From positions 372,001 through 436,000 of the forward strand of contig NZ_QRHA01000001.1 of the NCBI RefSeq assembly GCF_003367475.1: DNA of 64,000 bases. Direction: 5' to 3'. This document shows positions 15,950 through 62,936 of the stretch, one piece after another. Under the pieces are notes generated by a model. The model was not told where the DNA came from. It saw only the letters and a program-made list of their open reading frames with translations, and did not search any database. How positions within the stretch are numbered: position 1 is the stretch's first letter; each line of letters starts with the position of its first letter. Position numbers and translations under genes: made by a program. The stretch is from Alteromonas aestuariivivens. Its GTDB lineage: Bacteria > Pseudomonadota > Gammaproteobacteria > Enterobacterales > Alteromonadaceae.

Positions 15950-15954
15950 TAAGA

Positions 15955-15983: not shown

Positions 15984-16056
15984 ATGCAATTAAATAAGGT
16001 TGCCTTGTAGTCATGGAGCAACTACAGTAAAAAAAACTCTGTCAGAAAGGAAGACG

Positions 16057-16680: not shown

Positions 16681-16681
16681 A

Positions 16682-17425: not shown

Positions 17426-17464
17426 AGGCCTCTCTACAGGGTAAGCCGGAATGCCAGATTAGGT

Positions 17465-19111: not shown

Positions 19112-19115
19112 AGAA

Positions 19116-21592: not shown

Positions 21593-21613
21593 GTAAAATT
21601 GTTCCGACTACGA

Positions 21614-22246: not shown

Positions 22247-22292
22247 AAGAGATCATCCTACACATCTTATGGTTAATTTTTTTAGAATATAA

Positions 22293-22320
22293 TTTACCCT
22301 AAGGCAAATAACACTATAAT
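22293..22320 (+). promoter_or_regulatory. Candidate sigma-70 promoter of the right-facing XrtA operon
   Basis: TATAAT at 22315-22320 is a perfect -10 hexamer, with TTTACC at 22293-22298 as a weak -35, spacing 16 bp. It lies in the 149-bp AT-rich divergent region between the export lipoprotein gene and the sugar transferase gene. Confidence 0.5.
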
Positions 22321-22395
22321 GCCATCATGATACGTAGTCTATTAGAATAATAACCTTTATCATGGGTTTGCAGTTGTAGTTACAGGGGGCCAGGG

Positions 22396-23808: not shown

Positions 23809-23826
23809 TGCTCAAGGTGTTTTAAC

Positions 23827-24672: not shown

Positions 24673-24694
24673 GCGCGGAAAACAGGCAGTCTCC

Positions 24695-26173
24695 ATGAAG
24701 TGGTTTAGGGAAGAACGTAATGACTGGCAATGGGCTATAGGGCTTACTGCAATACTGTGGCTGGCATTCTGCTGGCAGGGGCTGTGGACGGCGGCGCAAA
24801 TCTGGTGGGGCAATGAAATATTCAATCATGGCTTTTTCATTGTTCCCGGAGCCTTGTATCTTATCTACCTGAAACGTTATGCGTTGCAGGCCTGCGGCCT
24901 CAAAAGTACTCTTTTGCCGCTGCTGGCGATTGGACCAACTTTGCTGTTGTACGTAATTGGTATTGCCGGCGATGTGCAATTGTTCATGCACATTGCAACT
25001 TTCACCCTATTGCCTCTGCTTTTGTGGGCCTTGCTGGGTCATAGAGCGGCGTACGTGGTTGTGTTTCCGCTGTGCTTCATTCTGTTCAGCGTTCCGGTTG
25101 GTGAGCAACTGATCCCCTATTTACAGGAGATCACAGCAGATGGTTCAGTCGCCCTGCTCAAGGCAACGGGCATACCACTGTACCGCAATGGCCTTTATAT
25201 CGAGATACCCCAGGGGCGGTTTCTGGTTGCAGAGGCTTGTTCCGGAGTCAGTTTTTTTATTGCCAGTATTGTCATAGGTACACTCTACGCCTATCTCAAT
25301 CTGCGAAAAGCATCTAAACGCATTCTGTTCACCCTGATTTCCATCGCGTTTCCCGTAATTGCCAACATCATTCGTGTGTACGGCATCATTCTGATTGCCT
25401 ACCAAACTGATATGAAACACGCTGCTGGTGCCGACCACCTCATTTATGGCTGGTTTTTCTTTGCGCTGGTGATCATGTGTTTGCTTGGCATAGGTGAACT
25501 GATGCGGGACAAAGACGCCCAGTGGGAAGCGCCGAAGCAAAGCGGCGCTCAGCTCACTGCAAAAGTGAGCAACGTCCATGTTTCGGTGCTTGCTTTACTT
25601 TTACTGTCGGGTACAGCCTGGACGGGATGGGTTCAATCCAATCTGGCCTCCTTCGCGGGGGCTGAAAGTCACTCATTCACAGTGCTTAAAAACGCGCAGT
25701 CAGGCTGCCAGAGCCGGCATGCCTGGCAGCCGGCCATGTCCAATCCAACCGCTGAGCTGATGCAGTTTATGGAGGCGGATGGCCGCTGTGAAATCCAGTT
25801 TTACCAGGCCTGGTTTAACGGCGATGGCAATGAGCTGGTAAGCGACCTCAACCGCCTTTACGCTCAGCATGACTGGTCACTGGAGGCTTCTGCGACAGTT
25901 ACTGTGCAACTGGAGAACCATCAGCTAACCCTGCCGGTAAGAAATCTGGTTTCCCCTCTGGGCAAGCGGGTGCAATTGGTGCACTGGTACGAAGTGGACG
26001 GTCAGCTGTTTTCCGGGCAAATCCAGACCAAGTTGTATCAAATTCGTAATGCACTGTTGGGTGGCAACACCCACGGCAGTGTCAAGGTGCTGGTTGCACC
26101 TGTCACTATACCTTTGGATTCGCTGACATCTCGTGTTTCCGGTCTGAATTTGAACTCTGCGGAAAGCCGATAG
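24695..26173 (+). CDS. xrtA: Exosortase A with C-terminal EpsI domain
   Basis: 492 aa inner-membrane cysteine protease/transpeptidase that recognises C-terminal PEP-CTERM signals. About eight TM helices fill residues 15-275. The family's invariant triad is present: Cys182 in VAEACSGVSFF, Arg227 in ANIIRVYG and His248 in GADHLIYGW. The region after about residue 295 is an EpsI domain, a fusion found in the XrtA subtype and one reason to call type A. It is embedded between the deacetylase and a Wzy-like gene. Confidence 0.95.
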   Translation: MKWFREERNDWQWAIGLTAILWLAFCWQGLWTAAQIWWGNEIFNHGFFIVPGALYLIYLKRYALQACGLKSTLLPLLAIGPTLLLYVIGIAGDVQLFMHIATFTLLPLLLWALLGHRAAYVVVFPLCFILFSVPVGEQLIPYLQEITADGSVALLKATGIPLYRNGLYIEIPQGRFLVAEACSGVSFFIASIVIGTLYAYLNLRKASKRILFTLISIAFPVIANIIRVYGIILIAYQTDMKHAAGADHLIYGWFFFALVIMCLLGIGELMRDKDAQWEAPKQSGAQLTAKVSNVHVSVLALLLLSGTAWTGWVQSNLASFAGAESHSFTVLKNAQSGCQSRHAWQPAMSNPTAELMQFMEADGRCEIQFYQAWFNGDGNELVSDLNRLYAQHDWSLEASATVTVQLENHQLTLPVRNLVSPLGKRVQLVHWYEVDGQLFSGQIQTKLYQIRNALLGGNTHGSVKVLVAPVTIPLDSLTSRVSGLNLNSAESR

Positions 26174-38687: not shown

Positions 38688-39797
38688 TCAGTTCAGCGCA
38701 CTGTACAGAGAACAGTATTTTTGTGACATCTGTGACACAGGAAATTTATTGTAGAATCGCTGCTCAGCCTTGCTGCCCATTTCTGCACTCAGGCTATTGC
38801 TATGAATGATTTGGTTGATTGCAGCGGCAAACGGCTGTTCATTCTGGTTTTCGGTAACAAAGCCGTTTACGGAATTCTTAATAATTTCAGCATTGCCTCC
38901 GGCGTCGGTAACCACGCAGGGTTTGCCCAGCGACATTGCCTCTAGCAATGTCATAGAAGTTCCCTCGCTCAGCGATGAAAGCAGAAAGATGTCCATTGCC
39001 GCCTGAAGGTCCGCAGGGTTGGGCTGGTAGCCGGTGAGAACAACTCTGTGGCCGATACCGAGGCTGGCAATTTTTGCTTCAATGTTTTGCCTTTCATCGC
39101 CATCCCCGACCATTACCAGCCAGGTATCAGGGAATTCCTTGAGGACCAGGGCAAATGCATCCAGCATCATTGCATGGTTTTTAATTGGGTCGAAGCGGGC
39201 GATGGTGCCCAGTACTTTAGCGTCTTTCGGGATCCCCAAAGCTTCTTTGGTTTCGGGCACCTTACTCATATCCACTTCCAGCGGCTTTATGCCGTTGTAG
39301 ATAACTTCGATTTTATCTCTGGGAATGTATTCAAACTCGACTAACGCTTCCTTGGTAGCTTTGGAGATGGCGGTTACCTGGTTGGTGAACTTCATCAGAA
39401 GCGGGTTGACCAGTTTGCGCTTCCAGGAACTCGAATCCGGATAAAAACGCCCATGCTCGGTGAATATCACTTTTGCCTTGGTAAAAGCCGCGGCGAGCGC
39501 TCCATACACCCAGGGGGTGTATTGGTGGCAGTGCACCACATCGATTTGGTTTTCTAGGATGTGCTTGCGGATAGTTTTTACCAAACTGGTATCAAAGCCC
39601 GGTTGCCGTTCATGGGTTGTGATTGCAATGCCGCTTTCCTGCAGTTCTTTACCCCAGGGCCCAAGAGGGGCTTCAATGCAAAATATCGACATGTCGAATT
39701 CTGAAGGGTCAGTGCCTTCGATGATGTTTTTGATCACCATTTCCGTACCGCCAATACGCATGTCGTAGGTGATGTGGAGTACCTTGCTACGCGGCAT
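38688..39797 (-). CDS. GT4 glycosyltransferase, XrtA-associated (TIGR03088-like)
   Basis: 369 aa GT-B enzyme. The opening KVLHITYDMRIGGTEMVIKNIIE and the motif VVHCHQYTPWVYGALAA fit the PEP-CTERM-associated transferase family Stp2; the donor region is SLSEGTSMTLLEAMSLGKPCVVTDAGGNAEI. It overlaps the amidotransferase gene by 11 bp, so the pair is translationally coupled. Confidence 0.87.
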   Translation of the reverse strand: MPRSKVLHITYDMRIGGTEMVIKNIIEGTDPSEFDMSIFCIEAPLGPWGKELQESGIAITTHERQPGFDTSLVKTIRKHILENQIDVVHCHQYTPWVYGALAAAFTKAKVIFTEHGRFYPDSSSWKRKLVNPLLMKFTNQVTAISKATKEALVEFEYIPRDKIEVIYNGIKPLEVDMSKVPETKEALGIPKDAKVLGTIARFDPIKNHAMMLDAFALVLKEFPDTWLVMVGDGDERQNIEAKIASLGIGHRVVLTGYQPNPADLQAAMDIFLLSSLSEGTSMTLLEAMSLGKPCVVTDAGGNAEIIKNSVNGFVTENQNEQPFAAAINQIIHSNSLSAEMGSKAEQRFYNKFPVSQMSQKYCSLYSALN

Positions 39798-41667
39798 ATT
39801 TGTTCCACCACATCTGGTACATCAGCATGCTCCAGAGCACGGCTCCGTGGTCCTGTTTTGCGGACTGATGCTGGTTCCAGAGCTTTTCAATCGCCGACTG
39901 GCTGAAGATTTCCGTCAGTCCGCCTTCAGAGTTCAGCAGAGCCTTTTCTGCGGTTTGTTTCAGTTCGTTTCTGAACCATTCTGCCAGCGGCACTGAGAAG
40001 CCCATTTTCTTTCTGTACAGCAAGGATTCGGGTATGAATGGCTTAAAAACTTCCTTGAGCAGGTATTTCTTTTCACCCTGATTGTACTTTTGCTCTGCCG
40101 GAAGTTTGGCGGCAAATTCAGCCACCTGATAGTCGAGGATCGGCGCGCGCACTTCCAGCGAGTTGGCCATGCTGGTGCGGTCCACTTTTACCAGAATTCC
40201 GCCGGTCAAATAGGTTTTGATGTCGGTGTACAGAATTTTGCTCAAATGGTCCGGGCCATCCGCCTGGTTGTAGAAATCAACAGTGAGCTGGCTAGGGTGG
40301 TAGCCCTGCAGTTGCTGACCAATGTCGGGTTTCACCAGGCTCTGCCAAATATCGTCAGTCATCTGGCTGTTGGTAATGTAGAAGCCCATAGCCGGGTCGT
40401 GACTCAGGCTGGTCAGCAGGGATTTGGCCTTTTTACCTATGGAACCAGGAATTGTTCCTGCCAGCGTGGCTAGCCCGGGGAATAGCGTCTTCCTGACAGA
40501 TTCAGGGAATTTGTTGCGTAGCTTATTCTCGATGTCATCGGTGGTGTATTTTTCGTAACCGGCGAACATTTCGTCGCCGCCATCGCCTGCCAGCGCGACC
40601 GTAACGGCCTTGCGGGCCAGCTCTGAAACAAAGAACGTGGGTACCAGAGAAGGGTCTGCAAAGGGTTCGTCAAAAAAGCTGACAATGTGTTCCAACCGCT
40701 CGGCTACGTTTTGGTGTACGGTAAATTCGTGGTGCTCGGTATGATATTTTTCCGCAATTTCGCGGGCGAAGTCGGCTTCGTTGTATTTTTCATCGTCAAA
40801 ACCAATGGTGCAGGTTTTGACCGCTTGCCCGCTGGCTTCAGCCATCATGGCCACCACGCCGGAACTGTCGACGCCGCCGCTCAGGAAAGCCCCCAGAGGC
40901 ACATCACTCACCATGCGTTGCCGAGTGACTTTCTCAAGCAGCGCCTTAAGTTGTTCGCAGTGCTCCGCTTCACTGAGATGGGAAGTGTGGGCGAAACTCA
41001 GGTCCCAGTACTGGTGTATGGACATGCCACTGGCATCCAGTTGCAGGTAGTGGGCGGGTGGCAGTTTATGGATATGCTTAAAAATGCTCTTGGGGTCTGG
41101 CACGTACTGGTAGGCAAAAAAATCGTATACCGCATCCAGACGAATGTCGCGGGGAATATCATTTAATGTGAGCAGGGCTTTGATTTCAGATGCAAAAGCA
41201 AAGCGGCCATTGTGGCTGAAGTAGTAGAGAGGCTTCTTGCCCAGCCGATCCCGGGCGATAAAAAGCTGTTTTGTGGTTTTGTCCCAGATGGCAAACGCAA
41301 ACATGCCATTGAGCTTTGCCAGGCAGTTCGAACCTTCCCGGGCATACAGTGCCAGAATGACTTCGGTATCGGTGTGGCTGTTGAATTGGTGGCCCTCGGC
41401 TTCCAGTTCTGCTCTGAGCTCAAGAAAGTTGTAGATTTCGCCGTTGAATACAATAACCAGATTGCCGTCAGCCGAATACATAGGCTGGTTTCCGGCTTCT
41501 GAGAGGTCGAGTATGCTCAGACGGCGGTGGCACAGGCCGATGTGGTCATCGAGATAAATCCCGCCGGCATCTGGCCCCCGATGGTAAATGGCCTGACCCA
41601 TCGCTTCGAGCGTTGCTTCATTTCCTTCCAAACCGTTAAATTGGCTGAATCCTGCTATGCCACACAT
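39787..41667 (-). CDS. XrtA system asparagine synthetase-like amidotransferase (TIGR03108-like)
   Basis: 626 aa with an N-terminal class II glutaminase domain (nucleophile Cys2 in MCGIAGF, RGPDAGG near 30-36) and a C-terminal ATP-pyrophosphatase domain (SGGVDSS at 263-269). Members in exosortase loci are thought to amidate a sugar acid or amino-sugar rather than make free asparagine; that role is inference from context. Its position between FemAB-like and GT4 genes matches the order in other XrtA clusters. Confidence 0.92.
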   Translation of the reverse strand: MCGIAGFSQFNGLEGNEATLEAMGQAIYHRGPDAGGIYLDDHIGLCHRRLSILDLSEAGNQPMYSADGNLVIVFNGEIYNFLELRAELEAEGHQFNSHTDTEVILALYAREGSNCLAKLNGMFAFAIWDKTTKQLFIARDRLGKKPLYYFSHNGRFAFASEIKALLTLNDIPRDIRLDAVYDFFAYQYVPDPKSIFKHIHKLPPAHYLQLDASGMSIHQYWDLSFAHTSHLSEAEHCEQLKALLEKVTRQRMVSDVPLGAFLSGGVDSSGVVAMMAEASGQAVKTCTIGFDDEKYNEADFAREIAEKYHTEHHEFTVHQNVAERLEHIVSFFDEPFADPSLVPTFFVSELARKAVTVALAGDGGDEMFAGYEKYTTDDIENKLRNKFPESVRKTLFPGLATLAGTIPGSIGKKAKSLLTSLSHDPAMGFYITNSQMTDDIWQSLVKPDIGQQLQGYHPSQLTVDFYNQADGPDHLSKILYTDIKTYLTGGILVKVDRTSMANSLEVRAPILDYQVAEFAAKLPAEQKYNQGEKKYLLKEVFKPFIPESLLYRKKMGFSVPLAEWFRNELKQTAEKALLNSEGGLTEIFSQSAIEKLWNQHQSAKQDHGAVLWSMLMYQMWWNKYAA

Positions 41668-51455: not shown

Positions 51456-53966
51456 TTACCCTTGCTTGGCTGACAGTTCGTCAATCATGGACTTGGTGTC
51501 CATGATATTGGCGTTGTCTGGCGCCAGTTTCAGAGCCTGTTCAATGTAAACCCGCGCCTGTTCCAGTTCACCTTTGTTGGCCAGCAGGTAGGCATAGTTG
51601 TTCAGTGAAACCGGATTTCTGGCCATAAGGGATTGATCCACACTGGCATACAGGCTCATGGCGGATTCAGGCTCTGTTCCGGTGACCAGCGTGGCCAGCA
51701 TCATTTTCACCGTATCATCACTGGGGTTAGCTTCCACATGACTTTTCGCGAGGTTGATGGCTGCCCTGGGCTGAGAGCTTTTGAGCAGGCTGTCGATGCT
51801 GTTAACCGCATATCGCGTGGTTGGGTTAAGCCGATAGGCCTGGATGTAATGGCTGGCAGCCGCCTTATAGTCTCCGGAGGAAGCAGCGATGGCACCCTGC
51901 AGACCGGTAACGGCATCCGGATGGGCTTCGCCGTCTATCAGGCTGAGCAAGCGTTGTGCTTCGTTAATGTTTTTGTTCTGCAAAGCGCTTAAAACCAGGG
52001 TTTCCTTTTGCTGTAAGGAGTACGAGGCTTCCGGTACGCCTGCAAACAGGTTGGTCAGTTTTTCACTGTCGCCAGAGCCTTTGTAGTAGCGTTCGAGCAT
52101 CTTAAACGCACTACCGGAGACTGGTTCACTGCCAATCAGGCGCAATGCGGTAGTTTCGAAGCGGTCAACTTCGCCTGTTGCAACCAGGGCATGCAGGTAC
52201 TCGCCCTTTTGTTGTTCGGGAAGCTTGAGCAGAACTGCCTGCCCATCAACGAAACCTACCAGTTCCTTGTGCATTTCCTGTTGTGACAGGTAACTTACCA
52301 GCCCGGCGCTGTGCTCAGGGCTGAATGTGTTTTCATTCAGTATTTGCGATGCACCGAGTTCAAATTTATTCTGAAGGATCAACTGGCCAACCAGCATGGT
52401 AAGCAGATCTTCTTTGCCCTGAAGCGCCTTTTTCGCCTGCTCAATGTCAGCTTGTGATTCGGACGCGTTTACCAGCAGAGTAATGGACAATGGGTTGGCA
52501 TTATTGTGTTTCAGTGCTTCCAGCCCCAGTTGGCGGGCTTCGGCATTACTGCCTTTGCCGATGGCGCTGAGCATTCTGAGGTTGCTCTTGAAAGCCGGTG
52601 AAGACAGCGTGGCACCTTTAATGACTTCGTCTGCTTTGTCAAATTGCTTTGCCTGCAGCAGTGACTGGATGTAAAGCACCGCGATTTGCGGGTTTTCTGA
52701 ATCAGCCTGATAGGCTCTTTCAAGGGAATCAAGCGCACTGGACTGGTTGTTCTCCAGTTTTGCCAATATTCCCTGGGATAGGTGGGTGTACGCAGAGGAG
52801 GGGTTGGACAACGCCAACTCTTTTAAAAACTGCCCGGAAAGCTCGGTTTCGCCGCTGGTAGCAAATTTGACCGAGGTAGCGCTCAGAATTTCTTCATCAG
52901 ACAGTTTTTCACTGCTCTGAAATACCTGCTGAGTCATCTTCTCAAGCAGTGCAGTGTCTTTAAGTTTGGCTGCCAGCGCCAATAGCAGATTGTTACCTGC
53001 TTCATTGCGTGACAGTTTGCCCACCAAAGGCTGCAGACTTTGCAGTGCAGATTCATAGTTGCCTAAACGAAAAGAAGCGGCAGCGGACAATACCCGTGCT
53101 GACTCACCCAGTCGGGGGTCGTTCACTACGTACTGGGAATATTCACTAACCTGTTCCAACTGCTGATTCTGGTAGTGGAATACTGCTTTGGCGTAATTTG
53201 CCAGCGGGTGTGTTTTGTATACTCCCAGTATTTCGGAGGCATACTTTTCAGCTTTTTCCAGATTGTTTGACAGTAAAGCAGAACGGGTCAGCAATACCAG
53301 CGAGCGGTTGTCTCTTGGACGCAGCAGCCGGTATGACTCGTAAGCGTCGTATGCCGCGGGAAAATTGCCCTGGCGCTCTGTAAGCATGGCATTTAGAAGA
53401 TGGGCATCCGCATTGTTTTTATCCAGCGCGATGGCCTGGCTGGCCAACCTCTGCGCCCGTTGAACGTCATTTTGTGCTACGGCATTGAACGCTAAACCTA
53501 AGGCGGCGTAGCTGCTGTTCAAATCTGAAAGAGTGGAGGCAAGTTTGTCGGCCTTCTCGGCCCGGTCAAGGTTCAGGGCTGCGTTAATGGCAAACGCGGC
53601 GGCCTGATCAGTAAGCGGCCCATGAGTTTGGTCCAGCAGTTCAAGTGCTGAATTGAATTCTTCCAGCAACGTTGCCGTTATTAGCATACCTTCAAGCGCT
53701 GACTGGCTTTTTGCAACCGCATAGACATCATCAAAGTTTTTGCGTGCGGAGGCGAAACTACCAATACGGAGCTCAGCCTGAGCCAGCAAAAGCCGCGCTT
53801 CAATATTATCGGGTTGTTCTGCAAGAACGTTTTTGGCAAGGATAATGGATTCGGAGGGAGCATCTATCAGCTTTTGTTGGGCCGATGACAGTTTTTCTTC
53901 GTTGCTCTGGCCACCACAGGCGACAAGGCAGGAGGTTAACAACAGGGTACTGCAAATTCGATACAT
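51456..53966 (-). CDS. prsT: PEP-CTERM system TPR-repeat lipoprotein PrsT
   Basis: 836 aa lipoprotein: signal with lipobox LVAC (Cys17 in MYRICSTLLLTSCLVACGG), then many TPR helices up to the C-terminus (e.g. NADAHLLNAMLTERQGNFPAAYDAYESYR). This is the TIGR02917-type protein that occurs only with exosortase systems and is thought to help export or assembly of the polymer or sorted proteins at the envelope. It lies downstream of the PEP-CTERM-like gene, separated by that gene's terminator, with no other gene between. Confidence 0.92.
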   Translation of the reverse strand: MYRICSTLLLTSCLVACGGQSNEEKLSSAQQKLIDAPSESIILAKNVLAEQPDNIEARLLLAQAELRIGSFASARKNFDDVYAVAKSQSALEGMLITATLLEEFNSALELLDQTHGPLTDQAAAFAINAALNLDRAEKADKLASTLSDLNSSYAALGLAFNAVAQNDVQRAQRLASQAIALDKNNADAHLLNAMLTERQGNFPAAYDAYESYRLLRPRDNRSLVLLTRSALLSNNLEKAEKYASEILGVYKTHPLANYAKAVFHYQNQQLEQVSEYSQYVVNDPRLGESARVLSAAASFRLGNYESALQSLQPLVGKLSRNEAGNNLLLALAAKLKDTALLEKMTQQVFQSSEKLSDEEILSATSVKFATSGETELSGQFLKELALSNPSSAYTHLSQGILAKLENNQSSALDSLERAYQADSENPQIAVLYIQSLLQAKQFDKADEVIKGATLSSPAFKSNLRMLSAIGKGSNAEARQLGLEALKHNNANPLSITLLVNASESQADIEQAKKALQGKEDLLTMLVGQLILQNKFELGASQILNENTFSPEHSAGLVSYLSQQEMHKELVGFVDGQAVLLKLPEQQKGEYLHALVATGEVDRFETTALRLIGSEPVSGSAFKMLERYYKGSGDSEKLTNLFAGVPEASYSLQQKETLVLSALQNKNINEAQRLLSLIDGEAHPDAVTGLQGAIAASSGDYKAAASHYIQAYRLNPTTRYAVNSIDSLLKSSQPRAAINLAKSHVEANPSDDTVKMMLATLVTGTEPESAMSLYASVDQSLMARNPVSLNNYAYLLANKGELEQARVYIEQALKLAPDNANIMDTKSMIDELSAKQG

Positions 53967-53977
53967 GACTACAACCT

Positions 53978-54004
53978 AAAAAAAAGGAGCCGACTTCGGC
54001 TCCT
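53978..54004 (-). terminator. Rho-independent terminator of the PEP-CTERM-like gene
   Basis: Nine-bp stem (53985-53993 aggagccga with 53996-54004 tcggctcct) and, on the minus strand, a run of eight T immediately after it (plus-strand A 53978-53985). It follows the stop at 54031 and precedes the prsT ATG at 53966. Confidence 0.88.
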
Positions 54005-54030
54005 AACTTAACAAATGTGCTGGTAAAAGA

Positions 54031-55242
54031 CTATGCAAATCTGCGTCTTAGACCCAGAGCCAGCAGAGCCAGACCAGACAGCAGCAGAGAACCCGGAGAG
54101 CTGGCTTCGATGGAAGCACTGGCGTCGGTTTCGGTTTGGCGTGCCAGCAGGTCGAACTCACAGCTTGCGTTCGGGCCGGCACAGCCTGCGGCGTCACGGA
54201 TCAGTTGCTTCAGTTCGTCCCATTTGTCGTCAGCGGCAGATGGGTCACCAATCAGGCCTGAGCAGCCACCGAATGGGATGTCAGTATCAGGCAGTGAACA
54301 ACCAGCGCCGTTGGCTTCTGCAGTGATGTCCCAAGCGTTGTAATCGTCTTTGGTGTAGTAGTACAGCTGACCTGCATCACCGTTACCTGCCAGGTTGGTG
54401 TCACCAACAGTTACGCTCTGCAATGATCCAGGGACTTCGCTGTAGCTGCCAACACTTTGGTCGATGTTGGTATCAACGCGAATGGTTGGGTTAGTTGCGT
54501 CAGGGTCAGCAACCAGGTCTGCAAAAGAGTTACCGTACTGGTCATACAGCAGGTCTTCCGCTGCCTGGATGGTTTCGCCCAGAATGTTCAGAGTGAACAA
54601 ACCGCCGCTGGTTTCGCTGTCCAGGCCGCTAACATCAAATGACCCAGCCAGAGCCAGGCGGTTACCCATATCGTCGGTCAAAAACAGGTTGAAAAGACCA
54701 TCAGTGATATTGGCGTAAAGAATTTCGTCAGAGTCACCGTCGATGATGCCATCGTTGCTCATCGCTTCTGCGATTGTGGCACACACAGGGGCTGTGAAGA
54801 TGTCGGTAACAGTACAGCCCATAGTCGCTGTGTTTACTGCAACAACGTAATCTTCAACTGACAAACCAACGTTTGCAGCCATGGTTGCAAGTGCAACTTC
54901 TGATTGAGTAGTTGCTACTGCAGTACCAACCAACAGGTAATCGGCAACCAAAGAGTAGCTGCCAGAGAACGTTGAACCACCAATCTGAGTATTGTTCAGA
55001 TAGTAGGCTCCCAGATTAACGTTGTTGCCGAAGTCGAAAACGAATTCGCCGTTGTTAACAAAGCCGTCCTGGGTGGAGTCAACGTAGTACGATGACGGGT
55101 ACATTTGCAGGAAGTCCAACTCATCAAACACGATTGCGTCAGAAAGGTCGCCATCCATAGTTGGGTCAAGTGTAATTGGGCTTGCCATAGCGCCGGCAGA
55201 CAGTGCAGAGCTCAAAGCAAGTGTAAGCAGTAACTTCTTCAT
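54031..55242 (-). CDS. Secreted protein with variant PEP-CTERM sorting tail
   Basis: 403 aa from ATG 55242 (GGAG seven bases upstream); an upstream extension to 55317 is not native. It has a signal peptide (MKKLLLTLALSSALSAGAMA), an acidic, Asp/Asn/Thr-rich body with few lysines, and a C-terminal tripartite signal: SSPG, a hydrophobic segment (SLLLSGLALLALG) and RRR. The canonical Pro-Glu-Pro is replaced by Ser-Pro-Gly. Its position next to prsT makes it the likely exosortase A substrate. No domain is recognised in the body; seven cysteines could form disulfides. Confidence 0.85.
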   Translation of the reverse strand: MKKLLLTLALSSALSAGAMASPITLDPTMDGDLSDAIVFDELDFLQMYPSSYYVDSTQDGFVNNGEFVFDFGNNVNLGAYYLNNTQIGGSTFSGSYSLVADYLLVGTAVATTQSEVALATMAANVGLSVEDYVVAVNTATMGCTVTDIFTAPVCATIAEAMSNDGIIDGDSDEILYANITDGLFNLFLTDDMGNRLALAGSFDVSGLDSETSGGLFTLNILGETIQAAEDLLYDQYGNSFADLVADPDATNPTIRVDTNIDQSVGSYSEVPGSLQSVTVGDTNLAGNGDAGQLYYYTKDDYNAWDITAEANGAGCSLPDTDIPFGGCSGLIGDPSAADDKWDELKQLIRDAAGCAGPNASCEFDLLARQTETDASASIEASSPGSLLLSGLALLALGLRRRFA

Positions 55243-55286
55243 TTCTATTCTCCATGAAACAAAATTGGGCAATTCGCAATCAGTAA

Positions 55287-55302
55287 AGCAGGTATCTTGC
55301 CA
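55287..55302 (-). promoter_or_regulatory. Sigma-54-like promoter upstream of the PEP-CTERM-like gene
   Basis: On the minus strand TGGCAAGATACCTGCT matches the -24/-12 consensus TGGCAC-N5-TTGCW at all but two positions, with correct GG-to-GC spacing. It would start transcription roughly 35 bases before the ATG at 55242. PEP-CTERM genes in other bacteria are known to depend on RpoN and the PrsK/PrsR pair, which fits. Confidence 0.6.
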
Positions 55303-55389
55303 ACTTTTAAAACTCATTTAATTTCAATGGTTTATCTAAGCTTGCTCGATTGACATGGATCCGGTCTGTAAAAAAGTCTGACAACATCT

Positions 55390-56247
55390 TCAGTCTTTGA
55401 GAACGATAGATTTGGCTATCCGGTACTTGAGCTTTTGCAGTGGCCCACGGTTGCCGAACGGCAGATACGAGCGTTTGAATTTATTTCGGTAGGCATCGAA
55501 ATGAAGGCCGTGGGGCGCCGCTGGCACTTTGCCGCGCTTCAACAGAATTTTGAGAGCGTTTGTGGCGGTTACACCGGCGCAAAGTTTCACTGCCATTGGG
55601 GTGGACGGGCCTCGGTGCTCCCGGAAATTGGCGGCTGTTGGGTCAACCAGATAAGGGCGCTGAAGCATAAATGGCGACAGCCCGACCAGAAATTTGATGC
55701 ATTTTTCTTCCAGCGAGGAAACTTCGCTCATGTCGAAGTAATCATTAAACGACATCTTGCCCGGCATAAAGGTAAGCAGAGACACACCCATTCCGAGTGG
55801 GGCTGCGGTGAGTGCGGGAATGCCTTTTTCATGGCAGCGGGTAAATACCCGTTCGCGGATATCAATAGTAAAAAAATCCAGACCATCAATGAACAGGTCA
55901 GCGTTGCGCAAAAAGTCATCCAGGTTGTCGGCATGGATACCCAGTGGAAACTCACTTATTTCGCATTCGGGATTAATGTCACGCAGAGTGCGGGCCAGTA
56001 CCGAGTTTTTGGGCTGCTCCACCGTAGACATGAAAGCGCCGGCCTGGCGGTTCATATTGTGAACTTCAAATTCGTCAAAGTCGGCAATGGCAAAGCGACT
56101 GATCCCCAATCGTGCCAGAGTGACCGCATGCTCAAAACCCACACCTCCGGCACCGGCGATGGCTACCTTTTTGTTTCTGAGGATCTGCTGCTCTTTGGCG
56201 GTCAACCAGCCAATGTTGCGGGAAAATGCATCTTCGTAATTGAACAT
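55390..56247 (-). CDS. ThiF/E1-like (ubiquitin-activating fold) protein
   Basis: 285 aa. Rossmann nucleotide motif KKVAIAGAGGVGFEHAVTLARLGI (from about residue 26), then FDEFEVHNMNRQAG and DINPECEI, all typical of ThiF/MoeB/E1 enzymes, and FIDGLDFFTIDIRERVF. Such enzymes adenylate a C-terminal carboxyl group. I see no CxxC zinc pair, so it belongs to a divergent subgroup. It is the last gene of the operon with the exosortase-associated acyltransferase; substrate unknown. Confidence 0.82.
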   Translation of the reverse strand: MFNYEDAFSRNIGWLTAKEQQILRNKKVAIAGAGGVGFEHAVTLARLGISRFAIADFDEFEVHNMNRQAGAFMSTVEQPKNSVLARTLRDINPECEISEFPLGIHADNLDDFLRNADLFIDGLDFFTIDIRERVFTRCHEKGIPALTAAPLGMGVSLLTFMPGKMSFNDYFDMSEVSSLEEKCIKFLVGLSPFMLQRPYLVDPTAANFREHRGPSTPMAVKLCAGVTATNALKILLKRGKVPAAPHGLHFDAYRNKFKRSYLPFGNRGPLQKLKYRIAKSIVLKD

Positions 56248-56267
56248 AACGGTGATTTGGTACTGCT

Positions 56268-57137
56268 CTATTGGTTGCGGGCCGACAATTCTATCGACTT
56301 TTGAATGTGCTCCAGCATGACTCTGAATCCGGGTGTCAGGCTTTTATACAGTAATTTCTGGTTAATGTAATAGGGCGCACGCTTGCCATGATAGTCCACT
56401 ACCGGACCTATTTGTTCAAACCGGATCCCGACAAACCCCATGCTTCGTGCCAGTCTGGGTTCCATCATGACGTATGCATGCTTGATGTTTTCATGCATGG
56501 CCAGTGCTGCAGCTGAGAAGTAAAGCCCTACGGCGATAAACGGGAAACAGCGCAATTCGGTTTCAGAGTAGGTGCTATAGTTTATCGCCCCGGTTGCGGC
56601 ACCGGCAAACCGGTCCATCTGACGTCGGCGGAACACATTCGGTACCGCCAGACGTGAGACTTCACAAATATCCTGGCGGGCAAAATTGGTTGGATTTAAA
56701 GACGCATTAGTAATTGAATCGAGACAGTATTTTTCAATTGGAAGCTTGTCATCGCTTTTTTGTGGCGTAACGATGCGTACGGTGCCCGCGTACTGTTGGG
56801 TATTGAGATGTTCTATCAGGCAATATTTGGCGTAACGATCGAATTCGTCGGTTTCTTCTCCGTTTTCCCTGATGGGTTCAAAGCCCAATTCATTGCAGTA
56901 GACATTGTGCCGGATCTGAAAGACCTGACTTTTCAGGTCCTCATTGCTGGCAATCAGCGGCTGCAAATAGCGGGAGAAATGGCTGCAAATGTCGTTGGCT
57001 TCTTTCAGTTGCCTGTAGCCATCCAACAATTTTCCGAGTTTTGAGCGCTTACCAATTAGCCGGGTTAACTGATCAAGCCAGCGGTTGTCATTTGCATCCT
57101 GCAACATTCCTGTGGCGTTTGAGGGTACTGCTTTCAT
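56268..57137 (-). CDS. PEP-CTERM/exosortase-associated acyltransferase (N-acyl amino acid synthase-like, TIGR03694)
   Basis: 289 aa from ATG 57137 (an in-frame TTG at 57167 is possible). GNAT/autoinducer-synthase-like fold: FQIRHNVYCNELGFEP and EVSRLAVPNVFRRR are signature stretches. Relatives recovered from environmental DNA make long-chain N-acyl amino acids from acyl-ACP, and this family is linked to exosortase loci. Product not predictable. It is between YdcF-like and ThiF-like genes with short gaps. Confidence 0.85.
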   Translation of the reverse strand: MKAVPSNATGMLQDANDNRWLDQLTRLIGKRSKLGKLLDGYRQLKEANDICSHFSRYLQPLIASNEDLKSQVFQIRHNVYCNELGFEPIRENGEETDEFDRYAKYCLIEHLNTQQYAGTVRIVTPQKSDDKLPIEKYCLDSITNASLNPTNFARQDICEVSRLAVPNVFRRRQMDRFAGAATGAINYSTYSETELRCFPFIAVGLYFSAAALAMHENIKHAYVMMEPRLARSMGFVGIRFEQIGPVVDYHGKRAPYYINQKLLYKSLTPGFRVMLEHIQKSIELSARNQ

Positions 57138-57179
57138 TGTCCTTGGTGTGTCCTGACGTTTAACCAATCGCTGGCATAG

Positions 57180-57926
57180 TTAGCTAAGCACGATAGCCTT
57201 GAGTATAGCCACATATTCATAAAGGGCGCTACGGCTACTTTCTAGTGCATCAATTGAAGGTAATGATATATAAGGTTTTAGTTTACCACTACTGTGAAAA
57301 TCCACCGGATAGAAGTAATACTCCCTGACCTCCTTCACCATCATCATTTTAAGCCGGGTTGCATGGGTTGCTGAGGAAACCACCATAACGGATTTGTTTT
57401 TGATGAGGGGGCCGATGGCATCGATTTCAGTTTGGGTGGTGGTGCCCTTACCTACCGTTTTAATTTTATTTTCGTTCATCCCCAGCTCAAGTAAAAATGT
57501 TTCAGCCTGGTGTGCGTAGGAAACGTCACGGTCTGCAAGAAAATGCCCCCCGGTTACGATAACGGGGACGTCATGGCGGCGGGCAAGTATTGATGCCTGA
57601 ACCAGTCTTTGTAAGGAGCATTCGCTCCAGCGGGAAATAGTGCTGACATCACCCTCGGTATTAAAGTAACAGCCTGGGGTAAAAATAAGCTCGGGTTTGA
57701 TGTTATCCGCTTTATTCAGAGTTGGCATATGTTCCAGCGGGTATAGCAGAACATCACTTACATAACGCTGTGAGAATATCAGCACAATAACCGAAGCGGC
57801 CAGCCAGCACCGTTTTGCTGCACGAGTTCGCTCTGTGCGTTGTGCAATAAATCCGGCGGCAGTGAGAAACACAGCGACATTGAACGGGGAGATAAAAAAT
57901 ACCGCCAGAGCTTTTAGAAAATCCAC
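57180..57926 (-). CDS. YdcF/DUF218-family membrane protein
   Basis: 248 aa starting at GTG 57926. There are two N-terminal TM helices (about 10-27 and 41-58), then a DUF218 domain with VPVIVTGGHF, AETFLLELGMNENKIKTVGKGTTTQTEI and VMVVSSATHATRLKMM. Related ElyC/SanA/YdcF proteins act in envelope or lipid-carrier metabolism. First gene of the three-gene left-facing operon. Confidence 0.83.
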   Translation of the reverse strand: MDFLKALAVFFISPFNVAVFLTAAGFIAQRTERTRAAKRCWLAASVIVLIFSQRYVSDVLLYPLEHMPTLNKADNIKPELIFTPGCYFNTEGDVSTISRWSECSLQRLVQASILARRHDVPVIVTGGHFLADRDVSYAHQAETFLLELGMNENKIKTVGKGTTTQTEIDAIGPLIKNKSVMVVSSATHATRLKMMMVKEVREYYFYPVDFHSSGKLKPYISLPSIDALESSRSALYEYVAILKAIVLS

Positions 57927-58006
57927 CTGAAAACCATTCCTTTTCGAGTTTACGTGCTACTATGGAGCCGATAAGGAGCGTTCAAGCTAACAGAACAAGG
58001 TGAAAT

Positions 58007-58792
58007 ATGAAAGTTGTAAGTACCCGAATTTCTGCCACATTTAACTTATACTTCGCGTTTTTTACCTGCTTTTTAGCGTCATTTCCCTCACAGGCCGGCA
58101 TGGTTGATACGGTTGAGAAGGTCACTGAGAGTGTCGTTGCTATCGGTTTTCACTCGCCCCTGGATCACAGTGCGCCAAAGGTTCTCGGTACCGGATTTGT
58201 AGTCGGAGACGGTACCTGGGTTGCCACAAATTATCATGTTGTTGATCAGTTGCTGGATCCACAAGTCGTGCAGTATTACGTTGTACTTACTGGTACAGGA
58301 GATCATGTTTTACAGCACCCTGTGGAAATAAGTGAAATAGATCCTGTACACGACTTGGCCCTGCTAAAACTGCCCATCAAACTGTCACCGCTCAGGCTGG
58401 TAGACGATGAAATGCTCAAACCCGGAAGTGACATCGCTTTTACCGGCTTTCCGCTGGGCTCGGTTCTTGGCCTGTATCCAGCGACTCATAAAGGTATGGT
58501 TGCCGCTGTTACCCCGGATGCCATACCGGTTTACAATACTGATCAACTTACTGCAACTATGATGAAGCGGTTAGGGCAATCGCAACGAATCTACCAGTTG
58601 GATGCCACAGCCTATCCGGGAAATTCAGGTAGCCCGGTGTATTTACCTTCAAGTGGCGAAGTGATTGGGGTTATGAACAAAGTCATCGTTCGTGACGCAA
58701 AAGAGAGTGCACTATCCAGCCCCAGCGGGATTAGTTATGCCGTACCCGTGAAGCATTTACGGGCACTAATGAATAAAGCAAACGCCGGGTAG
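58007..58792 (+). CDS. Secreted trypsin-like serine protease
   Basis: 261 aa with a signal peptide (about residues 1-30, ending SQA-GM). The chymotrypsin-fold triad is complete: His77 in ATNYHVVD, Asp116 in DPVHDLALLKL and Ser207 in YPGNSGSPVY. HtrA-type PDZ domains are absent, so it is a short DegP-like protease. SD AAGGTG precedes the ATG. It could process surface or PEP-CTERM proteins or the neighbouring Tat protein; that is inference from position. Confidence 0.88.
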   Translation: MKVVSTRISATFNLYFAFFTCFLASFPSQAGMVDTVEKVTESVVAIGFHSPLDHSAPKVLGTGFVVGDGTWVATNYHVVDQLLDPQVVQYYVVLTGTGDHVLQHPVEISEIDPVHDLALLKLPIKLSPLRLVDDEMLKPGSDIAFTGFPLGSVLGLYPATHKGMVAAVTPDAIPVYNTDQLTATMMKRLGQSQRIYQLDATAYPGNSGSPVYLPSSGEVIGVMNKVIVRDAKESALSSPSGISYAVPVKHLRALMNKANAG

Positions 58793-58873
58793 GGTGTCAG
58801 CTTTTTTAACATTCCTAAATTCCGGACAGTATGGTTTTTTATATATTCGATTAAAATCAATAACTTGAATTTG

Positions 58874-58889
58874 AGGCCTGATTATTGCT
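58874..58889 (+). promoter_or_regulatory. Sigma-54-like promoter upstream of the Tat-signal gene
   Basis: AGGCCTGATTATTGCT matches TGGCAC-N5-TTGCW with an intact GG (58875-58876), an intact TTGCT and the correct 12-bp GG-to-GC spacing; three consensus bases differ in the -24 part. It lies 35 bp upstream of the ATG at 58925. This is the second such site in the region. Confidence 0.55.
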
Positions 58890-58924
58890 AAGTTAAGGGC
58901 AGCATATAGTTCATAGGGTGTATC

Positions 58925-59668
58925 ATGAGCCAGTCAAAGTTTGAAAATGGACGTCGATCGTTTGTCAAAAAGGTAGCTGTTGGGACAGTTGTTTCCAGCC
59001 TGCCCGCTCAATCCGTTTGGGGCGCATGCAATGCGTCGGGGATTTCCGGTGGATCCCGGGTTATTTCGTTAACCTGTTCCCTGCCGGATATTTGTGGTGG
59101 CTGGTCTCCTGGCTCCTGGCAGAAATTTGTAAATGGATCTGGGGGAAGGGATACGAACGGCGGATTGCAAAGCGATAAGCTGACCAAGCTGTTCACGGTT
59201 CCGTGGCCGGCCAACGACTGCGTTTATGATCATTATTATGATCAATTGCAGGCGTTTTTCGCTGCGACAACACTTACACTGGGCGATGGAGGAATCATCC
59301 CCAAACTGCAATTCAATATTGCGGAAGTTTTCAGTAAGGACGATACCGGCAATTCCAAGATGGATTTGTCTGCACTTTATCTGAACTGCTATTTCGGCCT
59401 GGCAACCTGGGATACATTGTTGTATCCAACGCTGGATGAACTGATGAACGCGGTTTGGGCGGGCATGTGTGTGAATATGGGCACCCGCAGCAGTGATGGT
59501 TCTTACGGGTACCCAACCGGCTCGTTTGAAGGGTTAACCATGGAAAGCTACCTGACCGGTACTTACAAGTATGAAAGCTCACCTAAAGGTTCACTCACAG
59601 AACTGGCAAGCGCGCCGTTAAGTTGTCAGCCATCATCGGGCAGTGCCAACCCGAACCAGACACGGTAA
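58925..59668 (+). CDS. Tat-signal secreted protein of unknown function
   Basis: 247 aa. The N-terminus carries a twin-arginine motif (NGRRSFVKK, Arg11-Arg12) followed by a moderately hydrophobic stretch and a probable cleavage after VWGA. The mature part has seven cysteines, Gly- and Asn-rich segments (WSPGSWQKFVNGSGG, DPxLYLNCYFG-like region) and a disordered tail. No family recognised. It lies directly before the PqqD/HprK/nucleotidyltransferase genes and carries its own sigma-54-like promoter, so it may be the exported target of that cassette. Confidence 0.72.
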   Translation: MSQSKFENGRRSFVKKVAVGTVVSSLPAQSVWGACNASGISGGSRVISLTCSLPDICGGWSPGSWQKFVNGSGGRDTNGGLQSDKLTKLFTVPWPANDCVYDHYYDQLQAFFAATTLTLGDGGIIPKLQFNIAEVFSKDDTGNSKMDLSALYLNCYFGLATWDTLLYPTLDELMNAVWAGMCVNMGTRSSDGSYGYPTGSFEGLTMESYLTGTYKYESSPKGSLTELASAPLSCQPSSGSANPNQTR

Positions 59669-59672
59669 TTAA

Positions 59673-59717
59673 ACGTTGCGCCAACGTGCGTCTTTGTTAG
59701 ATTATTCGTTAATCTGA
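59673..59717 (+). other. Two adjacent hairpins between the Tat-signal and PqqD-like genes
   Basis: A small hairpin acgttg-cgc-caacgt (59673-59687) and a second of eight bp with one G-U pair (59697-59704 with 59710-59717, loop ttcgt) fill most of the 64-bp gap, just before the GAGG ribosome site at 59721. No T run follows, so they are not clear terminators; attenuation or RNA processing is possible. Confidence 0.4.
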
Positions 59718-59732
59718 CATGAGGTAAGTAAT

Positions 59733-59981
59733 TTGTTGTACTCGCACATCGTGATTAAAACAATGCCGGATCGCTCCGGTATTGTTGTTTTTAACCGCAA
59801 TACTTTTACTACCCAGTTTATTCAGAACCCTTTTGTTGAACAACTCAAGGCCGACCCGGTTTCAGGTGAGGTCGACTGGAACTGGTTGCAGTCACAGTGC
59901 GGGCAAAATCAGGATGCCCACGGTTTTTTGTCAGACCTTGTTGATTTGGGTCTGGTAGACGGAGGCAGCCGTGATCATTGA
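59733..59981 (+). CDS. PqqD-like protein of the HPr-rel-A system (TIGR04353-like)
   Basis: 82 aa starting at TTG 59733, with GAGGTAAG at the right distance; TTG 59736 is equivalent and ATG 59763 would remove part of the fold. The sequence (GIVVFNRNTFTTQFIQNPFVEQL, then FLSDLVDLGLV) fits the winged-helix PqqD/RiPP-recognition fold that binds leader peptides. It overlaps the kinase gene by 11 bp. Its peptide partner is not identified. Confidence 0.78.
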   Translation: MLYSHIVIKTMPDRSGIVVFNRNTFTTQFIQNPFVEQLKADPVSGEVDWNWLQSQCGQNQDAHGFLSDLVDLGLVDGGSRDH

Positions 59982-60816
59982 TACCGGGCATTACCGGTTT
60001 CGCGTATCCGGAGCTCCGGAATATTGCTACTCAGAACTGAGCCGCATGTATGGCGACAGTGTGAATCTCTCCCCTGAAAAACCGGTGGATTTTCAGCTTG
60101 ATTTCACATCAACCTCCTGGCTTCGAACACTGGTTCGCCCGCAAAGGGTACTGAATGTCGACAATCAGCGCATTTTTAACCCTATTGCCAAGGACAAATG
60201 TCTGCCTTCCATTGAATGGGGAATGAACTGGTGTGTGGCTTCCTATGACCATACCCGGTTACTGATTCACTCCTCAGTGCTGGTAAAGAACGACAAGGCA
60301 ATTATCTTTCCTGCAGCTCAAGGCTCGGGGAAAAGCACACTGGCAACCTTGTTGGGGCTGAATGGGTGGCACCTGTATTCCGACGAGATGGCAATTGTGG
60401 ATTTGAATTCTGCGACAGTGAGTGCGGTACACAGGGCATCTTCGCTGAAAAACCAGTCAATTAAAGTCGTACACAGCCAGTTTCCCAATGCCGTTTTTTC
60501 CCGTACCACCGAAGGCACTCAAAAAGGTGCCATTGCCCATGTGCAGGTACATTCCCGGGCTGAGTTTGATCACTTTGGCCCGGCCAGTGTGGTGGCCGTG
60601 GCGTGCCCCAAATACGTTGGTGGTGCCAGGACTGAGATTCTGCCGCTAAATCAGTCCCAGGGTTTTGCGCAACTTGTGCGCAACAGTTTTAATTACAGTA
60701 CCCTCGGTGAGCAGGGGTTTGAGACCCTGTTTAAGCTGGTGCAGGGTGCTGAGTTTTTTGCCCTTCGTTACAGTAACGTCAATGAGATCGGCGATTTTTT
60801 GGAAACGCTGGTATGA
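59971..60816 (+). CDS. HprK-related kinase A (TIGR04352-like)
   Basis: 281 aa from GTG 59971 with GGAGG five bases upstream. The P-loop is AAQGSGKST (about 115-123), followed by WHLYSDEMAIVDL with the acidic pair D138-E139, as in HPr kinase/phosphorylase. It lacks the N-terminal domain of true HprK. Relatives in lasso-peptide clusters phosphorylate the precursor peptide; here the substrate is unknown. It overlaps the nucleotidyltransferase gene by 4 bp. Confidence 0.85.
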   Translation: MIIDTGHYRFRVSGAPEYCYSELSRMYGDSVNLSPEKPVDFQLDFTSTSWLRTLVRPQRVLNVDNQRIFNPIAKDKCLPSIEWGMNWCVASYDHTRLLIHSSVLVKNDKAIIFPAAQGSGKSTLATLLGLNGWHLYSDEMAIVDLNSATVSAVHRASSLKNQSIKVVHSQFPNAVFSRTTEGTQKGAIAHVQVHSRAEFDHFGPASVVAVACPKYVGGARTEILPLNQSQGFAQLVRNSFNYSTLGEQGFETLFKLVQGAEFFALRYSNVNEIGDFLETLV

Positions 60817-61898
60817 AATCCGAAGCAAGAGCGTTATTTGACTGGTTACTGACCCCCCGGCAAGCCCTTGAATGGCAACCGCAGGAATGGGAGCGGGCGT
60901 TAAGAATACTGCGTGCCAATGATATGCTGGCGACCTTTGCAGGTTTGTTTGAACCCGGCGATCTGGAGCAGTTATCGGAATATGCCCGCAGACACCTGCA
61001 TTCCGCGGTGACTTATTATCAACGGCAGAAGCATCAGGTGCATCATGAAGTGGAATTGTTGCATGAGTTGATGGCTGGGGCCGGGTGTCACCCCGTATTT
61101 TTGAAAGGTGCCGGTTACGTGCTGGCAGAGGATTCCAATCATCGCGGACGGCTGATGTCTGACATTGACGTCATGGTGGACAAAAGTGAGTTGCGACGGG
61201 CTGAACTGGCTCTGCTAAACTCAGGTTGGAAGGCCAAGGAAGTCACCGATTATGATGATCGTTACTATCGGCAATGGAGCCATGAGTTGCCGCCTTTTGT
61301 TCATCCCGAGCGGGGAACCACCCTGGATTTGCACCATACTGTATTACCCCCGATAACCGGCAGGCGCATTGAAACTGTCACACTGTTTGACAACACTGTA
61401 CAGACTGATTCGGGATACACCATTTTTAACCTGAAATTTCGCTTGCTGCATTGCATCATTCACCTGTTTTTTAACGAAGACTATGAAAAAGCCTGTCGGG
61501 ATGTATGGGATATTCATTGCCTTGCAGAGCAGTTTTCTCAACCTGAATTGATGGAATTTATTGCGTTATCACAGCAGTTGGGATTTGGAACTGAAGTGTG
61601 TTTTGCGCTGAGATTGAGGCAGTATTTATTGGGAACCGAATACTGTGACCAAGCCAGTGAAACACTCAACCGGCAGTTGCGTGGGCGAGAATGGATGGTG
61701 AAACGCGTTATTGCACCAGCGGTGATGCCCACCCACCCACTGGTGGACACGTTTGGCACCAGGATTGCAAAGTCGCTGATGTATCTGCGTGGTCACTGGG
61801 TCAAAATGCCACTGCGAATTCTTCTGCCCCATGCCGCCACGAAAAGCTATCGGGCTCTTGTGTCGTCGGTGATGGGTAAATACCACTACGAAAGCTGA
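60813..61898 (+). CDS. NTP_transf_5 nucleotidyltransferase-family protein
   Basis: 361 aa. The Pol-beta-like core is visible as PVFLKGAGYVLAED followed by RGRLMSDIDVMVDKSEL (the DxD metal-binding pair), then LDLHHTVLPP and FRLLHCIIHLFFNEDYEKA. The family (PF14907-like) is a regular partner of HprK-like kinases in peptide-modification clusters. Last gene of the cassette, 21 bp before the epimerase gene. Confidence 0.85.
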   Translation: MKSEARALFDWLLTPRQALEWQPQEWERALRILRANDMLATFAGLFEPGDLEQLSEYARRHLHSAVTYYQRQKHQVHHEVELLHELMAGAGCHPVFLKGAGYVLAEDSNHRGRLMSDIDVMVDKSELRRAELALLNSGWKAKEVTDYDDRYYRQWSHELPPFVHPERGTTLDLHHTVLPPITGRRIETVTLFDNTVQTDSGYTIFNLKFRLLHCIIHLFFNEDYEKACRDVWDIHCLAEQFSQPELMEFIALSQQLGFGTEVCFALRLRQYLLGTEYCDQASETLNRQLRGREWMVKRVIAPAVMPTHPLVDTFGTRIAKSLMYLRGHWVKMPLRILLPHAATKSYRALVSSVMGKYHYES

Positions 61899-61919: not shown

Positions 61920-62936
61920 TTGAAAATACTTGTTACCGGTGCAGCCGGTTTTATTGGAGCCGCGGTATCACAATACCTGATGGATCGGGGGGACATCGTA
62001 GTCGGTCTGGATAACATCAATGACTATTATGATGTAAACCTGAAGTTTGCCCGTCTGAAGAAACTTGAATCCAGCCCATCTGCTGCCAATTTCAGCTTTG
62101 TGAAAATGGGTGTGGAGGATCGCAGCGGGATGGCTGATTTGTTTGAAACCCATCAGTTTGATCGGGTGGTGCATCTTGCCGCCCAGGCCGGGGTTCGTTA
62201 TTCGCTGGAAAATCCACACGCTTACGTTGACGCCAATCTGGTCGGTTTTATGAATATTCTGGAGGGGTGCCGCCACAACAAGGTAGGCCACCTGGTGTAC
62301 GCGTCTTCCAGTTCGGTTTATGGCGCTAACGAAATCATGCCTTTCTCCGAACAGCATAATGTGGACCACCCGGTTAGCCTTTATGCTGCATCCAAAAAGG
62401 CCAATGAACTCATGGCTCATACCTATAGCCATTTGTATCAGCTGCCCACAACCGGGTTACGCTTTTTCACCGTATATGGCCCCTGGGGGCGCCCGGACAT
62501 GGCCTTGTTCAAGTTCACCAAGGCCATTCTCGAAGGCGATAAAATCAGTGTGTATAACTATGGCAATCACCATCGTGATTTCACCTACATTGATGACATT
62601 GTCGAGGGAGTGGTACGTAGTCTTGATTCAGTTGCCCAGAGCAATCCACAGTGGTCCGGTAAACAGCCTGACCCGTCCTCCAGCAGAGCTCCGTGGAAGG
62701 TTTACAATATTGGCGCTCAGACTCCTGTCCACCTGCTGAAATTTATTGAAACCCTGGAAACGGCCTTGGGTATGGAAGCGCAGAAGGAATTGCTGCCTAT
62801 GCAGCCCGGGGATGTACCGGATACCTACGCCAGTGTTGAAGCACTGGTGCAGGACACTGGCTATCGCCCAACTACTTCAATTGAAACCGGCATACAGGCA
62901 TTCGTTGACTGGTATCGCGCGTTTTACAAGGTGTGA
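61920..62936 (+). CDS. NAD-dependent UDP-sugar epimerase, probably UDP-glucuronate 4-epimerase
   Basis: 338 aa from TTG 61920, preceded by GAGGG. Extended SDR: GAAGFIG NAD motif at 7-13, HLAAQAGVRYSLENP, SSSSVYG, YAASKKANE (the catalytic YxxxK) and RFFTVYGPWGRPDMA. The last stretch and the GNHHRDFTYIDDIV sequence fit the UDP-glucuronate 4-epimerase/CapI group. It supplies UDP-galacturonate or a related sugar, plausibly to the exopolysaccharide. Confidence 0.9.
   Translation: MKILVTGAAGFIGAAVSQYLMDRGDIVVGLDNINDYYDVNLKFARLKKLESSPSAANFSFVKMGVEDRSGMADLFETHQFDRVVHLAAQAGVRYSLENPHAYVDANLVGFMNILEGCRHNKVGHLVYASSSSVYGANEIMPFSEQHNVDHPVSLYAASKKANELMAHTYSHLYQLPTTGLRFFTVYGPWGRPDMALFKFTKAILEGDKISVYNYGNHHRDFTYIDDIVEGVVRSLDSVAQSNPQWSGKQPDPSSSRAPWKVYNIGAQTPVHLLKFIETLETALGMEAQKELLPMQPGDVPDTYASVEALVQDTGYRPTTSIETGIQAFVDWYRAFYKV

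Follow-up and report, generated by a model that had tools for sequence, protein, structure and literature searches.

The DNA analysed here, referred to as the window, is a 64,000-nucleotide stretch of the Alteromonas aestuariivivens genome (assembly GCF_003367475.1, contig NZ_QRHA01000001.1, positions 372,001 to 436,000 of the forward strand). It contains four closely spaced genes which encode a protein with a twin-arginine translocation (Tat) signal, a PqqD-like protein, an HprK-related kinase and a nucleotidyltransferase-like protein. Positions are counted from the first letter of the window:

58925..59668, + strand: Tat-signal protein, 247 aa, the proposed substrate (open reading frame list; family alignment)
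59036..59038, + strand: codon of Ser38, a near-invariant serine and the putative modification site (58925 + 3x37)
59733..59981, + strand: PqqD-like protein, 82 aa, TTG start, the proposed leader-binding element (position; homologs; profile comparison)
59971..60816, + strand: HprK-related kinase A, GTG start (255.1 bits against TIGR04352)
60813..61898, + strand: NTP_transf_5 nucleotidyltransferase-like protein (138.2 bits against PF14907)

A preliminary description of this DNA, made from its letters alone, had reported these genes with the last three overlapping, and the open reading frame (ORF) list agrees: the PqqD-like and kinase genes share 11 nt, and the kinase and NTP_transf_5 genes share 4 nt. 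The two enzymes were also named correctly. The kinase exceeds the curated NCBIfam cut-off of 200 for TIGR04352, the transferase exceeds the Pfam gathering cut-off of 31.2 for PF14907, and each is the single match of its kind in the genome. The intact P-loop was borne out as well, as His100, the P-loop G118-S119-G120-K121 and Asp138-Glu139 did not vary across 20 aligned kinases. Neither did Asp117, Asp119 and Asp172 across 20 aligned homologs of the NTP_transf_5 protein, and the catalytic residues of both enzymes look intact by these alignments. A kinase profile search for solved structures gave no relative at E up to 0.01, and an Rfam scan of the window gave no match at gathering thresholds.

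The Tat-signal gene was found to travel with the other three. In 60 related genomes, 22 kinases exceeded the TIGR04352 cut-off (in 20 genomes), and just upstream of every one of them lay a Tat-family protein of 190-299 aa with the twin arginine (RR), separated from the kinase by a small ORF (42-107 aa as called). A single-sequence search detected Tat homologs in 12 of the 60 genomes, with a kinase adjoining in 12/12. A wider set comprised named GTDB genomes, from which we took the best 80 loci by similarity out of at least 558 kinase relatives. All 80 contained a Tat-family match (82 matches in total), and in 79 no more than 600 nt separated the end of this match from the called start of the kinase downstream; in the remaining one (L128) it lay downstream of the kinase instead. 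An NTP_transf_5 homolog was detected by BLAST in 80/80 of these loci and in 21/21 loci of the relatives. The Tat profile used here had been retrained on its own matches, its first round, with 22 proteins, having given 76 matches. An RR or KR followed by a hydrophobic stretch was picked in the matched ORF by script in 65 of the 80 loci (the pick in L139 may be spurious) and by eye in 14 more; in L076 the RR segment is in another frame than its Tat-family match.

The same linkage appeared in a class-wide survey of 369 genomes, which contained 41 kinases over the cut-off. A Tat-profile match adjoined 35 of them, although four of these matches were weak (G116, with internal stops, G272, G372 and G381). 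An RR protein lay upstream of five of the other six (G193, G344, G150, G074 and G361), and the sixth (G317) was at a contig end, which brings the class total to 40/41. Counted in reverse, 31 of 32 near-complete Tat-family matches (profile from position 25 or earlier to 147 or later) adjoined a kinase. Whole-genome profile searches of this kind leave some first-look candidates unscored, and distances between kinase and Tat match were compared by hand across the relatives, class and phylum lists. The remaining match (L198:5076-5597, G354:C20) is a second Tat-family copy with no such kinase found adjoining, and its genome contains the cassette as well.

Thus, the neighbourhood survey that the preliminary description had called for was positive, and Tat homologs living mostly apart from the cassette, which would have spoken against its proposal, were not seen. 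Clearly, the four genes are one real, widely conserved and tight gene set. That they adjoin by chance or through shared transfer, with no common function, is hardly credible: several Alteromonas-like loci have identical flanking genes, so related rows are not independent, but the arrangement persists where the flanks differ and extends to other families and classes. There is strong support for counting the Tat protein as part of the cassette and for its being the likely substrate.

The Tat protein carries RR at residues 10-11, a signal that ends near residue 33, a region with Ser38, Ser42 and Ser46, the motif SPGSW at 61-65, N154, and, as described before, seven cysteines (35, 51, 57, 99, 155, 182 and 234). 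Generic Tat-signal models match it weakly (TIGR01409, 12.8 bits, cut-off 16.7), and the genome carries TatC. In an alignment of 91 family members, the near-invariant columns were R10 (90/91), R11 (91/91), S38 (90/91) and N154 (86/91), and the next-best serine columns were S42 (79/91) and S46 (72/91). This alignment omits 11 of 102 rows, four with an unsettled start (L076, L089, L120 and L139) and seven near-duplicates (L046, L103, L107, L116, L127, L130 and L142). Column 33, the likely end of the signal peptide, was A or G in 87/91 rows, and S38 lay 5-9 residues beyond it in 82/91. A twin arginine, a hydrophobic stretch and a small residue where cleavage is likely give the protein the signature predicted for a Tat substrate.

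Two other readings of its residues were rejected. A lipoprotein attached through Cys35 does not fit, because the cysteine of homologs is not at a constant distance from the signal; since cysteines flank Ser38 on both sides in 66 of the 91 proteins, on neither in 14 and on one in 11, a disulphide formed by this pair appears likelier. A C-terminal serine phosphosite, as in lasso peptides, was dismissed, as 22 aligned C-termini held no conserved residue at all.

No known fold could be matched to the cargo in the searches made. The Tat protein had no Pfam match and no NCBIfam model over cut-off, and no model specific for it was found in NCBIfam 20.0 (91 family members) or Pfam (21 members); at E up to 0.01, two Tat-signal models alone matched in NCBIfam, six members each. 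AlphaFold2 gave a poor model with 21 sequences (predicted local distance difference test, pLDDT, 58.7) and one with a pLDDT of 71.2 with 82 sequences, whose best Foldseek hit in PDB had E = 3.0. The Tat profile matched PDB sequences only weakly (best E 0.0099). In four ORFs with no kinase of this family beside them (G139, G274, G074:C37 and G158) the profile match was restricted to about positions 60-190, which suggests that the cargo domain may occur also without the RR and serine part.

Across the phylum, the leader varies less than the cargo, because 34 of 40 fetched loci kept an RR protein upstream of the kinase, mostly with another cargo. This survey of 299 genomes found 51 with a kinase; seven kinases were counted by an adjoining Tat-profile match alone, and four (G442, G489, G578 and G594) were left out. 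Among the 34 RR proteins, 32 extended for 116-149 residues from RR on and by eye lacked the SPGxW cargo motif, one was longer (L267), and one was cut short (L254).

The leaders were compared with 28 control Tat leaders, using patterns that were picked after inspecting sequences; at least two of the controls (L285 and L291) and three of the 36 phylum leaders (L246, L269 and L273) are probably mis-picked. The motif PxhhT[LVMI] was present in 28/36 phylum leaders, in 8/9 leaders of the short peptides described below and in 0/28 controls. Looser patterns discriminated less: any Pro in the hydrophobic part was found in 9/28 controls, 64/91 leaders of the window protein's own family, 35/36 phylum leaders and 9/9 short peptides, and T[LVMI]x[SA] in 1/28, 32/91, 20/36 and 8/9, respectively.

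The short peptides form a size class of their own, as the Tat profile also matched RR-leader ORFs of 56-149 aa (L190, L191, L192, L193, L195, L209, L213, L232 and L233, all near HprK-like kinases that stay under the TIGR04352 cut-off), three of them in tandem in L209. A nearby kinase of this sort was seen at nine short-ORF loci (G417:C15, G376:C112, G343:C1, G160:C1, G081:C51, G243:C15, G095:C77, G226:C27 and G264:C97), and in the examined stretch of six others (G344:C464, G417:C25, G243:C4, G107:C99, G095:C104 and G376:C239) no such kinase was found. The nine aligned short peptides have a Gly-Ser shortly past the likely cleavage site, and 8/9 of their leaders, versus 0/28 controls, contain YxxPx[hydrophobic], which is known as a leader motif of lasso peptides and of linear polyphosphorylated peptides (LPP; PMC13381572). 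Those near the below-cut-off kinases look like Tat-led precursors of ribosomally synthesized and post-translationally modified peptides (RiPPs), as far as their sequences tell.

The genes around the set were scanned as the ten proteins of 51456-61898 (NCBIfam and Pfam), with the downstream ORF scanned separately. Two of them directly flank the set:

58007..58792, + strand: Trypsin_2 serine protease, a possible processing protease, directly upstream of the Tat gene (Pfam)
61920..62936, + strand: sugar-nucleotide epimerase-like protein (best model GalE, 147.8 bits, cut-off 262.3)

A Trypsin_2 homolog lies on the same strand no more than 1.5 kb upstream in 29 of the 80 wide loci. The epimerase-like gene starts 21 nt past the NTP_transf_5 gene and in 13 of 21 loci of the relatives a homolog lies about 100 nt or less from that gene; it is possible that its product supplies the donor in this genus. 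Also upstream are genes for a DUF218 protein, an exosortase-associated acyltransferase (over cut-off) and a ThiF-family protein. The 54031-55317 ORF encodes a secreted-looking protein with a PEP-CTERM-like end (13.7 bits, Pfam cut-off 20.7).

Farther upstream lies an XrtA exopolysaccharide locus with exosortase A, a chain-length determinant, a tyrosine autokinase, a deacetylase and an ATPase (over cut-off). Its XrtA/PEP-CTERM genes span 14873-26173, exosortase A being encoded by 24695-26173, and are followed by glycosyltransferase-like ORFs. This proximity agrees with another explanation, in which the Tat protein is a secreted partner and the modification falls on a peptide or polysaccharide from genes elsewhere, such as those of the XrtA locus. 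The acyltransferase homolog present in 22/80 wide loci points the same way. However, the other 58 have no such homolog in the fetched stretch, some of which end at contig ends, while a Tat-family member lies upstream in 79/80, and the short RR peptides beside related kinases resemble precursors; we consider this explanation unlikely. A general dependence on an exosortase was rejected on the same count of 22/80.

Neither a macrolactam cyclase nor a B2-type protease was found among the ten neighbours, and the set does not qualify as a lasso cluster. An asparagine-synthase-like ORF 18 kb away (39787-41667) scored 310.8 bits against the lasso cyclase model (cut-off 525) and best against the XrtA amidotransferase model (721.9 bits, below its cut-off of 816.9). 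The preliminary description had noted no cyclase and no precursor peptide. The former stands among the ten scanned neighbours; as for the latter, the Tat protein itself is likely the precursor.

The nearest described systems are LPP and paeninodin-type lasso clusters. In LPP clusters, such as the lpp cluster of P. alginolyticus, a discrete RiPP recognition element (RRE), an HprK-like kinase and an NTP transferase co-occur; the precursor acquires one to four phosphates only when the kinase is present, and Ser3 of the core, just past the leader, is the phosphate site (PMC13381572). LPP precursors also resemble the Tat family in having a conserved N-terminus and a variable C-terminus, and their clusters were described from within capsular polysaccharide loci (PMC13381572). 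In contrast to the gene set studied here, which has an RR signal as leader and mostly 185-300 aa of cargo, LPP clusters encode a SipW-like signal peptidase and an MsbA-like transporter and occur mainly in Bacillota (PMC13381572). We found no SipW-like signal peptidase I or MsbA-like transporter among the ten neighbours and the downstream ORF, the rest of the window not having been searched.

Lasso clusters of the paeninodin/pseudomycoidin type likewise tie an HprK-like kinase and an annotated nucleotidyltransferase to modification of a precursor serine: PsmK is the phosphorylating enzyme of pseudomycoidin, and one or two hexoses are linked to PsmN (PMC9266682). The present set differs in that the substrate would be a protein and the proposed serine is N-terminal, not C-terminal. 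The word Tat is absent from the main text of the LPP paper (PMC13381572), as are Tat and twin-arginine from that of the lasso review (PMC9266682). In NCBIfam, the window kinase belongs with TIGR04352, and TIGR04353 is called HPr-rel-A system PqqD family peptide chaperone, a name implying that linkage to a PqqD partner had already been recognised. In the open-licence PMC literature we found no paper using either model name, and no title or abstract opening that describes this gene set.

Taken together, these results lead us to favour, with moderate confidence, a reading in which the set works as a single system, modifying a Tat-exported protein while this is still in the cytoplasm: a serine would be phosphorylated and then extended before export. 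The Tat signal would double as a leader peptide, to which the PqqD-like protein would bind, and this binding could keep the Tat protein off the translocon until it is ready. The kinase would phosphorylate the serine a few residues past the signal peptide, Ser38 here, and the NTP_transf_5 protein would then attach a sugar or nucleotide to the serine phosphate. The Tat system would export the modified product, which the adjoining serine protease may trim. The linkage of the genes, the RR leader, the conserved serine and the intact-looking catalytic residues are seen directly, while phosphorylation followed by nucleotidylation or glycosylation before export is proposed by analogy with LPP and lasso systems. 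This would be a new form of RRE/HprK/NTP-transferase modification, with a Tat-exported protein as its probable substrate.

Tat proofreading chaperones such as TorD and DmsD offer a further comparison: the PqqD-like protein would likewise be a cytoplasmic protein that attaches to a Tat signal during cargo maturation, but with a PqqD-like protein in place of the TorD fold and covalent modification in place of cofactor insertion. It could even be mainly a proofreading chaperone, with the kinase and NTP_transf_5 protein controlling export or folding by reversible phosphorylation, as HprK does on HPr, and leaving no permanent decoration. The relation of the kinase to the HprK family, the RR leader in most loci and the position of the conserved serine next to the signal peptide are all in line with this. 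However, that serine sits in the mature part, no phosphatase was found among the ten scanned neighbours, and those HprK-like kinases described together with an RRE and such an NTP transferase leave the phosphate on the peptide. Reversible control of this kind seems improbable to us.

Several observations weigh against the system of leader-guided modification proposed above. The 82-aa window protein matched no PqqD model in the NCBIfam and Pfam scans, TIGR04353 included. The label PqqD-like is used because of the gene position, because TIGR04353 matched 3/20 positional homologs (best E 8.9e-6), and because hhalign aligned the 82-aa family with seven PqqD-type proteins (probability 87.6%, E 3.5e-6, one sequence, L045, being in both profiles). 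Of the four gene labels, it is the weakest by sequence, and the PqqD-like protein of the preliminary description is upheld to this extent. The PxhhT motif was found in only 5/91 leaders of the protein's own family and is missing from the window leader, and the [Y/W]xxPx[hydrophobic] RRE-binding motif of LPP and lasso leaders was found in 0/91. In 19/91 rows (the SxxxSGxGS group) clustered serines leave the choice of the S38 column uncertain, and one homolog has Thr in place of this serine. Six of the 40 phylum loci (L246, L247, L248, L259, L266 and L273) had no upstream RR protein. In addition, the second step is weakly precedented in LPP, because deletion of lppN, the NTP transferase gene, had no visible effect in that work (PMC13381572).

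A broader proposal can be made tentatively, and we hold it as a possibility somewhat short of even: that this is a widespread proteobacterial system in which the Tat signal serves as a RiPP-type leader that the PqqD-like protein reads, the HprK-related kinase and the NTP_transf_5 protein place a phosphate-linked adduct on a serine beside the signal, and the protein leaves by the Tat pathway folded and decorated. Short Tat-led peptides encoded near related kinases would follow the same principle. TIGR04352 and TIGR04353 bear the names of a system with no substrate in the material consulted, and the Tat protein with its near-invariant serine offers a concrete candidate substrate and site. If this is true, RRE-guided modification would reach from peptides to exported proteins, and the linkage suggests that a Tat signal may be able to double as a modification leader.

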